Part shown: piece after piece, positions 2,546-30,449 of the stretch
Layout of the letters: every line of letters starts with the position of its first letter
Numbering within the stretch: the first letter of the stretch is position 1
Source of the DNA: Actinomycetota bacterium
GTDB taxonomy: Bacteria > Actinomycetota > Acidimicrobiia > Acidimicrobiales > Ilumatobacteraceae
Direction of reading: 5' to 3'
Assembly: GCA_009698745.1 (NCBI GenBank)
Contig: WLPO01000004.1
Coordinates: 1-33,950 of the forward strand
DNA length: 33,950 nt
Notes under the pieces: generated by a model
Told to the model about the DNA's origin: nothing
What the model saw: the letters and a program-made list of their open reading frames with translations, nothing else
Databases searched by the model: none
Position numbers and translations under genes: made by a program

Positions 2546-3658
2546 TTAGTCATGTGCCGGAGCCGCCATAACAACACTGGCTTGCCTAGCCGAGAACAAA
2601 TACACGTCTTCAGCCGACCACGAGCACCACACTGTCTCACCTAGTGCAAAACGCGCAGGATTGGTTCGTGCAACCATCACCAGAATGTCACGGCCCTTTG
2701 CGCTCACCACATATTGCAAAACATCGCCGAAGTGCGACACGCCAGCGACCTTGGCTTCGACCGCATTAGCTGACTGAGCTGGTTGGGCTGCAGACAAGTT
2801 GATGCACTCTGGTCGCACGGCCGAGAGAGCTGCCTCACCGTTGGGCACATTCTCTTCAGGCCGAGTTGCTATGAACACTGTGTCGTCATCGGCCTTTGCG
2901 CCATCCTCGGTTGCAACGCCTTGCCAGAAGTTGTTGCGTCCAATGAACCCGGCAACGAATGCGGACGTTGGATGCTCATAGACAGTTTCAGGGTCGCCGA
3001 GTTGTTCGATATGCCCGTCGAGCATGATGGCAATTCGATTCGACATCGACATTGCTTCTTCTTGGTCGTGAGTTACGAATACGAAAGTGATGCCCAAACG
3101 ACTCTGCAATAACTTCAACTCGATTTGCATCTCTTCGCGCAATTTGCGATCGAGTGCGCCAAGCGGTTCGTCCAGAAGCAAGATGCTTGGTCGATTAACA
3201 AGTGCACGTGCAACTGCAATGCGCTGTTGTTGTCCACCCGACATCTGTCGTGGCTTGCGCTCGGCCAACTTAGTCATCTGCACCATGTCGAGCGCTTCCA
3301 TCACACGCGTCGCAGTCTCTATCTTGTTGACGCCTTTTTGTCGCAAGCCATATGCCACGTTTTCTGCAACTGACATGTGCGGAAAAAGCGCATAGTGCTG
3401 AAACACCGTGTTGACATCTCGTTTATATGGCGGCACACCTTGCACTTCAAGACCATTGATCCGAATGAAGCCTTCATCTGGTTGCTCGAAACCCGCGAGC
3501 ATGCGCAATGTTGTTGTCTTGCCACAGCCCGATGGGCCAAGCAGTGAAAGAAACTCGCCTGCCTTGATTTGCAAGTTGATTCCGTTTACAGCAAGCACAT
3601 CACCATACTTTTTGGTGACATTGCTCAGTTCTACCGAGCCGCGCTCACTATTTTCCAC
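2546..3658 (-). CDS. potA: Spermidine/putrescine ABC transporter ATP-binding protein
   Basis: 370 aa; Walker A GPSGCGKTT, signature MSGGQQQRIAVARAL, Walker B LLLDEPLGALD, C-terminal TOBE-like region. Confidence 0.92.
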   Translation of the reverse strand: MENSERGSVELSNVTKKYGDVLAVNGINLQIKAGEFLSLLGPSGCGKTTTLRMLAGFEQPDEGFIRINGLEVQGVPPYKRDVNTVFQHYALFPHMSVAENVAYGLRQKGVNKIETATRVMEALDMVQMTKLAERKPRQMSGGQQQRIAVARALVNRPSILLLDEPLGALDRKLREEMQIELKLLQSRLGITFVFVTHDQEEAMSMSNRIAIMLDGHIEQLGDPETVYEHPTSAFVAGFIGRNNFWQGVATEDGAKADDDTVFIATRPEENVPNGEAALSAVRPECINLSAAQPAQSANAVEAKVAGVSHFGDVLQYVVSAKGRDILVMVARTNPARFALGETVWCSWSAEDVYLFSARQASVVMAAPAHD

Positions 3659-3692
3659 TCTGTCCCCCGTGCATGTTGATATTTATAGTTGG

Positions 3693-20983: not shown

Positions 20984-21247
20984 GTGGAGAGTCTTGCTCG
21001 TCTCGTTGCGCTGATTCTTGGGGCCGCACTTGCTTCAGGCATCATTGCAGTCGTTTTGTGGCGTAAGCCGCCACGCAATGTTGTAGTACGCGTGATCCTT
21101 GTTGTACTCATGTTGCCCGTGATGTGCATAGGAATCTTTCTTGCTTCGCTCTCGGTAGGCATCGGAGTGCGCGCTTTTGGGGCGGCGATTTTCATTTCGG
21201 CTGTGCTTGCGACTAAGTCGATGTTCGCTCAAAAGAATTCGCACTAA
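20984..21247 (+). CDS. Small multi-pass membrane protein of unknown function
   Basis: GTG start, 87 aa: MESLARLVALILGAALASGIIAVVLWRKPPRNVVVRVILVVLMLPVMCIGIFLASLSVGIGVRAFGAAIFISAVLATKSMFAQKNSH; 2-3 predicted hydrophobic segments; 18 bp after acn. Confidence 0.6.
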   Translation: MESLARLVALILGAALASGIIAVVLWRKPPRNVVVRVILVVLMLPVMCIGIFLASLSVGIGVRAFGAAIFISAVLATKSMFAQKNSH

Positions 21248-21261
21248 ACATCAGCCAGGAA

Positions 21262-21373
21262 ATGGGAAAGGCCCCACATTTCTGCGGGGCCTCTCAACCT
21301 GAGAATCCTGTGGCGGGGGAGCCACATTTTTGGATTCTGTCGGGCGGGCTCTGGGGGGAGCCCACCGCGATAT
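21262..21373 (-). ncRNA. 6C RNA (actinobacterial sRNA with C-run loops)
   Basis: Minus strand: hairpin 1 GGTGGGCT-CCCCCCAG-AGCCCGCC (8-bp stem with one U.G, six-C loop); hairpin 2 GAATCC-AAAAA-TGTGGC-TCCCCC-GCCACA-GGATTC (two 6-bp stems, A5 bulge, C-run loop); then AGGCCCC-N10-GGGGCCT-TTCCCATTT terminator-like hairpin. Confidence 0.88.
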
Positions 21374-21379
21374 GTATCC

Positions 21380-21409
21380 AGTATGGCCTACCCGTGGGTA
21401 AGCGCGCAA
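21380..21409 (-). promoter_or_regulatory. Candidate promoter for the 6C RNA
   Basis: Minus strand TTGCGC (21409-21404), 18-bp spacer, CATACT (21385-21380); predicted start near 21373, just before hairpin 1. Pattern match only. Confidence 0.4.
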
Positions 21410-21428
21410 GGCGAACGTCACGATATCC

Positions 21429-21449
21429 CCTATCTATTTTTCAGATAGG
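21429..21449. promoter_or_regulatory. Inverted repeat upstream of the LysR gene
   Basis: CCTATCT-ATTTTTC-AGATAGG, 7-bp perfect arms, between the candidate 6C promoter and the LysR ATG. Confidence 0.4.
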
Positions 21450-21479
21450 TAGACCCCTGATTTGGCTAGCCTGTGGTTT

Positions 21480-22427
21480 ATGGAGATTCGCCACCTCGCC
21501 AGTTTGATCGCAATTGCAGATCATGGCTCATTTTCGGGGGCCGCTCGGGCTCTTGGAACTGTGCAGAGCAATGTCTCCGCCCACATCTCCCGGCTTGAAA
21601 AAGACCTGGGTGTCGCACTTGTTGAGCGTAATGGCGGTGCGCTCACCGAAGAAGGCGTGGTCGTAGTTGAGCGCGCGCGCCGCATCATTCACGAACTTCA
21701 AGACATCGAAGCAGACGTTCACTCGAGCGACACCGAGGTTGAAGGTGAAACACGTCTTGGATGCATTGGCACCACCGGTCGATGGCTCATGCCCCGACTA
21801 CTTCCCGCTCTTAAAAAGACACACCCACTCGTTCGAGCAATCATTCATGAAGGCGGAACATCAAGTCTCATACCTCGCGTTCTGAGCGGAGATCTCGATG
21901 CTGCAATCGTCCACTTCCCCGTTGATGATCCCGAATTAGTTCTCGAACCATTATTTTCCGAAGACCTCGTCTTACTCGTCCATTCAAAACACAAATGGGC
22001 TGCGCTCAACACCATCACCATCGCAGAACTTGTGACCGAACCAATCTTGCTCGCACCACGCAATACTGCGTTGCGAAAAATCATCGATCGCGCTGCAGGC
22101 GCACAACGACTTGCGTTTACCGCACAGGCCGAAATTGATGGTGTTCGACTACTTACGTCACTTGCATTTGAAGGATTCGGACCCGCGATTGTTCCTGCCA
22201 CCGCAATACCCGGATGGCTCAAGGGCGAATTCGCGCGAGTAACCATTCCCGAACTTCCGCGACGAGTAGTTGGTTGGGCATCGCGACGCCGACCAATTCC
22301 CAACAAATCAACTCGTGCAGCACTCGAAGTCACCAAAAATGTTGTGGCAAAAAGTGGAGATCGCCAACCGGGAGTAACAACAGCTCTTGTTTTGCCAAGC
22401 CAAACTTCGTCTACAGTCAAGGCGTGA
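21480..22427 (+). CDS. LysR family transcriptional regulator
   Basis: ATG at 21480; MEIRHLASLIAIADHGSFSGAARALGTVQSNVSAHISRLEKDLGVALVERNGGALTEEG (LTTR HTH) with LysR effector domain. Confidence 0.92.
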   Translation: MEIRHLASLIAIADHGSFSGAARALGTVQSNVSAHISRLEKDLGVALVERNGGALTEEGVVVVERARRIIHELQDIEADVHSSDTEVEGETRLGCIGTTGRWLMPRLLPALKKTHPLVRAIIHEGGTSSLIPRVLSGDLDAAIVHFPVDDPELVLEPLFSEDLVLLVHSKHKWAALNTITIAELVTEPILLAPRNTALRKIIDRAAGAQRLAFTAQAEIDGVRLLTSLAFEGFGPAIVPATAIPGWLKGEFARVTIPELPRRVVGWASRRRPIPNKSTRAALEVTKNVVAKSGDRQPGVTTALVLPSQTSSTVKA

Positions 22428-23797
22428 ATCGATTGAACAATAAAATATCGACACCAGTTCAGTTGCAACAGTCAGTAAAAGGCGCAGTAAGCGCTGAAGT
22501 TCGATTACTCAACGATTCGCAACGCACTGTCGTCTGGGTCGAGATTGATCCGACAGTTCATTACGGAGCACTTTCGGCCGAAGCATCTGGCGTTATTGCA
22601 AACGCGGCGACCACCGCCCTCAACCAACGTTTGCCGCTTGTGCTTTCAATGGCATCTTCCGGCGCCGACATTCTTGGCGGAATCGATGCATTGTTTGGAT
22701 GGGGTCAGGCCGCACGCAGAGTTGCCATGTGCTCTGGCATTGTTCCAATTTTTACGATCGTAACTGGGCCAGCCGTGAGCGGTCCTGCGCTACTGATCGG
22801 TCTCAGTGACTTTGTGATCATGACAAAAGACTCTTATGCATTCGTATCCGGACCAACAATGGTTGCCGAATTTACGGGCATCACAATGACCAACGAAGAG
22901 CTTGGTGGCACTGATGCTCACTCTCGCCAAAGTGGTGTTGCAAGTTTGGTAGTTGCAGACGTAGAGAATGCCCTTATTGCGCTCGAACAACTACTTTCAT
23001 TCATCCCAGACAATGTTGACAACGTTGCACCTCACATCGCAACCAATGACCCCGCAGATCGTCTAACACCAGAAGCTGGTGCAATCATCCCCGACACCGC
23101 GACCGGCAGTTACGACGTGCGCAAGGTAATTCGCGCAATTGCCGATGACGCAGACATGCTCGAAGTACGTGAAAGTTGGGCGGCCAATGTCATCACCGCA
23201 TTCATCACGATCGACGGCGAATCTGTTGGAGTAGTCGCCAATCAACCGATGGTGTTGGCTGGCACGCTCGATATTCCTGCTTCACAAAAGGCTGCGCGAT
23301 TTGTGTCGTTCTGCGATGCATTCAACATTCCATTACTCACGCTTGTTGATACGCCAGGTTTTTATCCTGGCAAAGACCTGGAGTGGCGCGGCATGATTCG
23401 GCATGGAGGCCAACTCGTATTTGCGTATGCCCGCGCGACCGTGCCTCGCGTATGTGTGATCCTGCGCAAAAGTTACGGTGGTGCCTACATCGTCATGGAC
23501 TCAAAAGGCATGGGCAACGATTTGTGCATGGCTTGGCCAAGTGCGGAACTCGCCGTCATGGGCGCAGGTCAGGCGGCAGCGATCTTGCAACGACGCGCAA
23601 CACCAGAAGAGCGTGCAGTATTTGAAGCCGACTACACCGAGCGACTGCTCAACCCTTATGTGGCTGCCGAGCGCGGATATATCGATGCGGTCATTAATCC
23701 AGCGGAAACACGACGTGAAATTTCGGCTGCATTTACTATGTTGCGCGATAAACGCGAGCGACTCCCTTCGCGCAAACATGACAACTCGCCCCTGTAG
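22424..23797 (+). CDS. Acyl-CoA carboxylase carboxyltransferase (beta) subunit-like protein
   Basis: GTG at 22424 overlapping the LysR TGA; LVDTPGFYPGKDLEWRGMIRHGGQLVFAYARATVPRVCVILRKSYGGAYIVMDSKGMGNDLCMAWPSAELAVMGAGQAAAIL. Confidence 0.86.
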   Translation: MNRLNNKISTPVQLQQSVKGAVSAEVRLLNDSQRTVVWVEIDPTVHYGALSAEASGVIANAATTALNQRLPLVLSMASSGADILGGIDALFGWGQAARRVAMCSGIVPIFTIVTGPAVSGPALLIGLSDFVIMTKDSYAFVSGPTMVAEFTGITMTNEELGGTDAHSRQSGVASLVVADVENALIALEQLLSFIPDNVDNVAPHIATNDPADRLTPEAGAIIPDTATGSYDVRKVIRAIADDADMLEVRESWAANVITAFITIDGESVGVVANQPMVLAGTLDIPASQKAARFVSFCDAFNIPLLTLVDTPGFYPGKDLEWRGMIRHGGQLVFAYARATVPRVCVILRKSYGGAYIVMDSKGMGNDLCMAWPSAELAVMGAGQAAAILQRRATPEERAVFEADYTERLLNPYVAAERGYIDAVINPAETRREISAAFTMLRDKRERLPSRKHDNSPL

Positions 23798-23862: not shown

Positions 23863-25131
23863 ATGGCTGAAACAATCACCATCATCGATGACCGAACAGG
23901 CAAGAAAATTACTGTTCCAGTCAAAGATGGCGTCTTTGCCTCATCGGCGCTACGTGAACTCGATCCAAATCTTCGAATGTACGATCCAGCTTTTTTGTCA
24001 ACGGCTGCGTGTGCATCATCCATCACCTATCTCGATGGTGAAGCAGGAATTCTTCGCTACCGCGGTTACCCAATCGAGCAGCTTGCCGAAAAATCAACCT
24101 TTCTTGAAGTTGCATACCTTCTGCTCAAGGGTGAGCTTCCAACAACCCAAGAGTTAGAGGCATGGAATTTTGAAGTCACTCATCACACGATGATTCACGA
24201 AAACATGCGCAAGCGCTTCGTTGATGGTTTCCACTACGACGCACACCCAATGGGCATGTTCATTTCGGCTATTGCAGCACTCGGCACATTTTACGACGAT
24301 TCCAAAAACATCTTTGATGAGGAAGTGCTGAACAAGCAGATTCGTAGGCTTGTCGCCAAAGTTCCAACTATTGCGGCAATGACGTACCGATTCTCATCTG
24401 GGTTGCCATTTGTGTTGCCAAACAACTCGATGTCATATGCGCAAAACTTTCTCAACATGATGTATCGCATTGGTGATGACTACACAGTGCATCCAGCACT
24501 TGCTCGCGCAATGGACGTGTTGTTCATTTTGCACGCAGACCACGAACAAAACTGTGGCACAACCGCGATGCGAGTAGTTGCCTCATCCCATGCAGATCCA
24601 TACTCGGCGACTGCAGCGGCAGCGGCAGCGCTTTCTGGCCCACTGCATGGTGGCGCCAACGAAGCAGTGATTCACATGCTCACAGAAATCGGTGATGTTA
24701 AAAACGTTTCTGCTTTTGTTGAGCAAGTCAAGAAGGGCGATGACCGACTCATGGGTTTTGGTCACCGCGTCTACAAAAACTTTGACCCACGTGCCACGAT
24801 CTTGAAGAAGACTGCGTACGAAGTCTTTGAAGTCACTGGCAAGAACCCATTACTTGACATTGCGCTCAAACTTGAAGAAGTTGCGCTCAACGATGAATAC
24901 TTCATCTCTCGCAAGCTGTATCCAAATGTCGACTTCTACTCTGGGCTGATCTACCAAGCACTCGGCTTCCCTGTCGAAATGTTCACAGTACTGTTTGCAA
25001 TTCCTCGCACAGTTGGCTGGCTAGCCCACATGTCGGAATTGCTGAAGGATAAAGAACAAAAGATCAGCCGTCCTCGCCAGTCATACACCGGTGTTGGTGA
25101 ACGCAATTACGTGGAGATGAAAAAGCGCTAA
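23863..25131 (+). CDS. gltA: Citrate synthase
   Basis: ATG at 23863; DPAFLSTAACASSITYLDGEAGILRYRGYPIEQLAE, HADHEQNCGTTAMRVVASSHADPYSA, GPLHGGANEAV, MGFGHRVYKNFDPRA. Confidence 0.96.
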   Translation: MAETITIIDDRTGKKITVPVKDGVFASSALRELDPNLRMYDPAFLSTAACASSITYLDGEAGILRYRGYPIEQLAEKSTFLEVAYLLLKGELPTTQELEAWNFEVTHHTMIHENMRKRFVDGFHYDAHPMGMFISAIAALGTFYDDSKNIFDEEVLNKQIRRLVAKVPTIAAMTYRFSSGLPFVLPNNSMSYAQNFLNMMYRIGDDYTVHPALARAMDVLFILHADHEQNCGTTAMRVVASSHADPYSATAAAAAALSGPLHGGANEAVIHMLTEIGDVKNVSAFVEQVKKGDDRLMGFGHRVYKNFDPRATILKKTAYEVFEVTGKNPLLDIALKLEEVALNDEYFISRKLYPNVDFYSGLIYQALGFPVEMFTVLFAIPRTVGWLAHMSELLKDKEQKISRPRQSYTGVGERNYVEMKKR

Positions 25132-30375: not shown

Positions 30376-30449
30376 TGGGCGCGACGGGACTCGAACCCGG
30401 GACCCCTACCATGTCGAGGTAGTGCTCTAACCAACTGAGCTACGCGCCC
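30376..30449 (-). tRNA. tRNA-Val (GAC), atypical C33
   Basis: Minus strand GGGCGCG TA GCTC AGTTGGTTA GAGC A CTACC TCGACAT GGTAG GGGTC CCGGG TTCGAGT CCCGT CGCGCCC A; complete cloverleaf with GAC at positions 34-36; no encoded CCA. Confidence 0.88.

Follow-up and report, generated by a model that had tools for sequence, protein, structure and literature searches.

Does the gap between acn and a LysR-type regulator gene in this member of Ilumatobacteraceae (order Acidimicrobiales, class Acidimicrobiia) encode a small RNA, and if so, to which family does it belong and what might govern it? 6C RNA is widespread in actinobacteria, where links to SOS, GlxR and stationary phase have been reported and targets differ between species. 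The original prediction had placed a 6C RNA here, oriented opposite to its neighbours. We followed it up in the window (the whole 33,950-nt stretch of DNA that was analysed) and in genomes of the same genus, family, order and class.

The minimum-energy fold of the minus strand at 21262-21373 consists of three hairpins, the third being a GC-rich terminator (Table 1), and its energy of -65.2 kcal/mol compares with -35.2 +/- 3.6 kcal/mol in shuffled sequences (n = 200; z = -8.3; 0/200 as good). The predicted succession of two hairpins with C-run loops and a GC-rich terminator-like hairpin on the minus strand is thus borne out; hairpin 2, which had been read as 6 bp / A5 / 6 bp, folds as 7 bp / A5 / 6 bp, and its bulge varies among relatives from 0 to 6 nt, so that A5 is no conserved feature. 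The RNA would begin near 21373-21376 and end near 21260, with CCCAUUU following the terminator hairpin instead of a long U run. An Rfam scan of the whole window returned no match above threshold except one tRNA gene, at 30376-30449 on the minus strand. Identity with BjrC68 was rejected, the match being sub-threshold (25 of 39 bits) and covering only the terminator.

Table 1. Features of the small RNA locus and of a candidate target in the window.
Feature	Position	Strand	Basis or remark
C-loop small RNA gene, ~114 nt	21260..21373	minus	Fold, covariance model matches, compensatory changes
Hairpin 1, loop CCCCCC	21340..21370	minus	G-run on plus strand at 21353-21358
Hairpin 2, loop UCCCCC, 7 bp + A5 bulge + 6 bp	21302..21338	minus	G-run on plus strand at 21315-21319
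Terminator hairpin 3, loop without C-run in window's genus	21266..21295	minus	Fold and family comparison
-10 box CATACT	21380..21385	minus	Near-invariant in genus and family alignments
-35 box TTGCGC, TTG invariant	21404..21409	minus	Genus and family alignments
Perfect palindrome TACCCACGGGTA in promoter spacer	21389..21400		Window's genus only; replaced in rest of family
Probable LysR binding region	21422..21448		Centred about -54 to RNA start; binding presumed
LysR-type regulator, divergent from small RNA	21480..22427	plus	Pfam LysR_substrate 4.7e-37, HTH_1 1.3e-18
Carboxyltransferase-domain protein, start approximate	22424..23797	plus	Pfam Carboxyl_trans 3.4e-118
Citrate synthase gltA, third gene of LysR unit	23863..25131	plus	NCBIfam PRK05614 above cut-off
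Candidate target GGGGGA, shortly before GTG start 3658	3637..3679	minus	ABC-transporter ATPase gene 2546-3658

Comparative evidence indicates that this RNA is real and strongly conserved, far beyond chance. By a DNA search of 41 relatives, the same RNA was found in 17 genus members including the window; these homologues span 109-114 nt; their 5' ATATCGCGGTG and their C-runs do not vary and their terminator hardly does, so that close relatives keep the loops whose loss the original prediction had named as an argument against itself. A mechanically called 81-aa ORF (21262-21507) overlaps the RNA gene on the plus strand; because homologue lengths differ by 1-5 nt, not by multiples of three, it is no conserved reading frame, and the earlier statement that no ORF explains the region holds. 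Covariance model R1 matched 104 of the 121 Ilumatobacteraceae genomes at E <= 3e-5 and placed the RNA in 26 of 27 family genera, finding none in genus g25. Several weaker R1 matches were rejected once their sequences had been read, since they comprise the terminator stem only, namely those in g25 (L081, L103), at a second site in G049 (L104), in G053 (L106), in G055 (L105) and in order genomes (L110, L111); of the weak phylum-level R2 matches (E 8e-4 to 0.05), those inspected (L161, L162, L164, L168) proved to be terminators as well. When a terminator pattern was run against 11.3 million genome contigs, 39 loci were found, all but two titled Acidimicrobiia or Actinomycetota MAGs; one of these two is titled Acidobacteria.

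Across 42 family members, 97.5% of cells are paired and 24 of 30 pairs show double changes; with partners slid as a control, pairing fell to 45-52% and the covariation score dropped from 0.59 to 0.05-0.08. Double changes affect all 12 pairs of hairpin 1 and all 4 counted pairs of hairpin 2, and hairpin 3 has 14/14 pairs at 100% paired cells. The C's at four loop columns of hairpin 1 are 100% conserved and its adjoining stem columns show ~40% identity; core loop C columns in general are conserved at 98-100% vs ~40% in stem columns. Invariant loop C's among varying stems would be the mark of loops doing the work. All 42 members have at least four C in at least two loops, 40 of them have at least four in the loop of hairpin 2, and this hairpin has been lost in two members of genus g29. 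The terminator loop carries at least four C in 27/32 members from the rest of the family and in 0/10 from the window's genus; the usual family form therefore has three C-loops, the third of which the window's genus has lost. Gain and loss of C-loops proceed hairpin by hairpin. Fold, covariance model matches, covariation and loop conservation together support the predicted conserved C-loop small RNA, presumably transcribed opposite to its neighbours.

The gene immediately upstream of the RNA is the same LysR orthologue, divergently oriented, in 41/41 family loci checked, with its start 71-147 nt upstream of the RNA start; a carboxyltransferase gene and then citrate synthase follow it as far as the locus reaches. 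Since the downstream side of the RNA varies among these loci and the LysR side is constant, aconitase (acn) was rejected as the RNA's partner. Between acn and the RNA lies a plus-strand gene (20984-21247) for an 87-aa predicted membrane protein, which has no Pfam match and occurs in close relatives only.

Of 158 order genomes, 125 carry the LysR gene in single copy, with one match each. An order-wide survey covered up to 300 nt upstream of 105 LysR orthologues from 45 other families on the divergent strand. C-loop hairpins were found upstream of 83 orthologues, with at least one such orthologue in 41 of the 45 families, and 49 orthologues had two or more; on the opposite strand of these regions, 14/105 had a C-loop hairpin and none had two or more, and hairpins per upstream region numbered 1.40 vs 0.34 in a mononucleotide shuffle. 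Many of these LysR-adjoining RNAs have two hairpins, with a C-loop on the terminator, and closely resemble 6C; at the other 22 loci, no C-loop adjoined LysR within the 300 nt surveyed on that strand. The pairing was independently confirmed by order members L155 and L156, found with model R2. Another order of the class yielded one LysR orthologue with C-loop hairpins (L303) and one without (L304), and no LysR orthologue was found outside the class at the E cut-off used. The carboxyltransferase gene follows LysR in the same direction in 17/25 order loci examined; the window's copy scores below the mmdA cut-off, and its position is kept across much of the order. The original prediction had noticed the adjacency to LysR but missed that the pairing is conserved order-wide. 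Linkage through some 45 families, together with a conserved box, argues for a functional link between regulator and RNA.

The RNA has its own conserved promoter, with a -35/-10 spacer of 18 nt in the window and 17 nt in most of the family. The spacer palindrome of the window's genus looks like an operator. Upstream of the promoter, GATA-N5-TATC at 21422-21434 is conserved in the family and is adjoined by the inverted repeat CTATCT-N7-AGATAG at 21430-21448. Order-wide, GAT-N7-ATC occurs in 78 of 105 upstream regions vs 1.7 expected from shuffles, and this box precedes the RNA promoter: it lies ~54 nt upstream of where the RNA begins and also near the start of LysR. LysR activators often bind about 54 nt before a start, and, judged from this position, LysR would control the RNA promoter. 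Many order members (L213-L292) also have, in the first 60 nt from the LysR start, a palindrome-like CTGTTGGACAG that overlaps the -35 element.

We favour, with a probability of roughly 60%, a LysR-controlled C-loop small RNA that pairs with G-rich ribosome-binding sites and is organised like E. coli gcvA-gcvB. According to this reading, a stand-alone RNA of ~114 nt would be transcribed from a promoter of its own, located in the gap that precedes the divergent LysR gene, and would fold into two or three hairpins, each presenting 5-6 cytosines. LysR, sensing a small metabolite, would bind at the GATA-N5-TATC region, between the starts of the RNA and of its own gene, switch the RNA promoter and repress that gene. 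The C-loops would then pair with G-runs at ribosome-binding sites and lower the translation of a set of mRNAs, of which peptide and amine uptake and catabolism genes are the best candidates. Both halves of this proposal have precedents. B11 represses translation through pairing of either C-loop with G-runs at ribosome-binding sites (PMC10470900), and mRNA repression by its C-loop pairing was also described elsewhere (PMC12395582). The gcvB gene is divergent from that of the LysR protein GcvA, is activated by GcvA and represses dppA (PMC1557403). Here, a LysR gene divergent from the small RNA, with a candidate binding region between them, is present in 41/41 family loci, an arrangement shared, presumed operator included, with enterobacterial gcvA-gcvB and oxyR-oxyS; genes for SBP_bac_5-type peptide-binding proteins are candidate targets, comparable to dppA there. 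The locus would thus combine the B11 design and the gcvA-gcvB design. It has, however, no sequence relation to either enterobacterial system and uses C-loops, not a G/U-rich linker. Identity of this LysR with OxyR was rejected: it scores far below the OxyR cut-off (114 vs 329), and the redox cysteine pair is absent, no column having cysteine in >20% of 56 LysR orthologues.

Is the RNA itself a 6C RNA? The Rfam 6C model (RF01066; cut-off 47 bits) has no match in the window or the assembled genome at E <= 10, so that the covariance-model check proposed with the original prediction came back empty for the region even at E = 10, and membership in the family in the Rfam sense is not supported. Known 6C genes score 47-90 bits with the same tool. 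RF01066 matches at L069, L070 and L073 look like chance and were discarded. In Corynebacterium glutamicum and most order genomes the model does not reach its own threshold, and it seems narrow; the majority of C-loop RNAs of an entire class escape it. Regarding structure, two hairpins present loops of about six C in the window (6 C and 5 C), as in 6C. The second C-loop of B11, in turn, sits on the terminator hairpin, whose loop is a seed (PMC12395582), an arrangement seen in 0/10 members of the window's genus. The regular 6C gene of mycobacteria lies near Ms1 (PMC9569102), and the true 6C locus L170 also has Ms1 nearby; here the neighbours are LysR, carboxyltransferase and gltA.

Taken together, the RNA shares with 6C (B11 in Mycobacterium, cgb_03605 in Corynebacterium) its occurrence in Actinomycetota, a length of ~90-110 nt, hairpins with C-run loops, the presumed pairing with G-rich ribosome-binding sites and, in most of Ilumatobacteraceae, a terminator-loop C-run like B11 loop 3. 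It differs in drawing no 6C model match, in having a C-run in hairpin 1 as well, in the terminator without C-run of the window's genus, in its position divergent to LysR instead of near Ms1 and in a promoter with a LysR-type box. What had been called a 6C RNA is thus a C-loop small RNA with 6C-like loops, but RF01066 membership, the second C-loop on the terminator and the 6C context do not carry over. By analogy, the RNA appears to work like 6C, of which it may be a remote relative.

These likenesses also nourish the strongest alternative, which we consider unlikely: that the RNA is a genuine, diverged 6C/B11 orthologue merely adjoining a LysR gene in this class, with LysR uninvolved. RF01066 scores 33 and 29.4 bits on L109 and L093, relatives whose terminator bears a C-loop, aligning hairpins 2 and 3 exactly in register, and reaches 40.9 (L272) and 36.8 bits (L222) on the best LysR-linked order members, yet none of the 20 such members tested attains 47 bits. 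In three genomes, G159 (L276), G186 (L275) and G200 (L229), LysR lacks an adjoining C-loop RNA and an RF01066-like match is present at another place in the genome, which would fit a relocation of the RNA gene. An uninvolved LysR is, however, difficult to reconcile with a linkage maintained across some 45 families and a conserved box lying in between, and the well-scoring 6C genes of other classes that were tested are two-hairpin RNAs with no such LysR within 1.5 kb.

For the preferred reading, in which C-loops pair with G-rich ribosome-binding sites, candidate targets were sought in the window's own genome, sampled in stretches (about 0.85 Mb) with gene starts called mechanically. GGGGG (G5) occurred at -22..-3 in 9/589 ORFs vs 10/2356 control windows (p = 0.006), and the count of genes with GGAGG was identical. 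The nine G5 genes include those for the window's ABC ATPase, an aminotransferase, a WhiB factor and a dimethylglycine-oxidase-like protein, and all three SBP_bac_5 peptide-binding protein genes of the sample have G5 (p = 2.5e-6, noticed after the fact). With flanking bases differing, G5 is kept in 12/13 orthologues of the dimethylglycine-oxidase-like gene, and G5 or GGGGGA in 6/6 genus orthologues of the ABC ATPase gene, whose site is predicted to pair with the two RNA loops at -12.8 to -15.2 kcal/mol. Among 239 held-out ORFs of the same genome, which contain no SBP_bac_5 gene, only three carry G5 at the ribosome-binding site; judged by its sequence, one encodes a substrate-binding lipoprotein. 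The proposed search for G-rich sites thus showed an enrichment in the 589 ORFs of the own genome; in G047, a three-C-loop relative, G-runs were not enriched (6/311 vs 5 and 3). The neighbours are no obvious targets: lacking a G-run, the acn, gltA and LysR mRNAs were rejected as direct ones. As gene starts were mechanical and G-runs could simply be Shine-Dalgarno sites, the target evidence is suggestive, and it points to peptide and amine uptake and catabolism genes. Functions in ABC uptake and amine catabolism are frequent among the genes with G5 at the ribosome-binding site (2546-3658 minus; L306, L314, L320, L345, L353).

The C-loops might instead be decoys for a C-binding RNA-binding protein, like a CsrB sponge in reverse, and not antisense seeds. 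Two to three near-identical UUCCCCCAA hairpins per RNA would suit this function, as would their varying copy number (hairpin 2 lost in g29, the third C-loop in the window's genus). We nevertheless regard it as improbable, given that the tested actinobacterial C-loop RNA precedents act by mRNA pairing (PMC10470900, PMC12395582). No C-binding partner protein is known here. It is hardly credible that the region is only a bidirectional terminator and cis structure with no trans-acting RNA: the terminator hairpin is weakly recognised on the other strand too and would serve the plus-strand gene at 20984-21247, but a terminator needs neither the dedicated conserved promoter nor the covarying hairpins 1 and 2 with their invariant C-loops, and the RNA is retained where the plus-strand neighbours differ.

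No publication describing such a small RNA in Acidimicrobiia turned up in a text search, and our results suggest an apparently undescribed regulator-plus-RNA switch. More tentatively, and with somewhat more doubt than confidence, the locus may belong to an ancient LysR/C-loop RNA regulon of Acidimicrobiia, in which a LysR linked to the citrate synthase operon drives an RNA with several C-loops that limits peptide and amine uptake; such a regulon would parallel gcvA-gcvB independently and would be the source of 6C in this class or a sister to it. The RNA is a candidate global post-transcriptional regulator for abundant uncultured freshwater and soil actinobacteria. With a 6C-like RNA physically tied to one LysR in dozens of families, it becomes possible to test directly what controls the RNA and which signal it follows. 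Short RNAs with C-rich hairpin loops also occur in alphaproteobacteria (ar7, ar14, CcsR1; CCUCCUCCC motif), and models of these gave sub-threshold matches to the LysR-linked relative L272; their loops are, however, CCUCCUCCC vs CCCCC here, and they belong to another phylum and have other neighbours.
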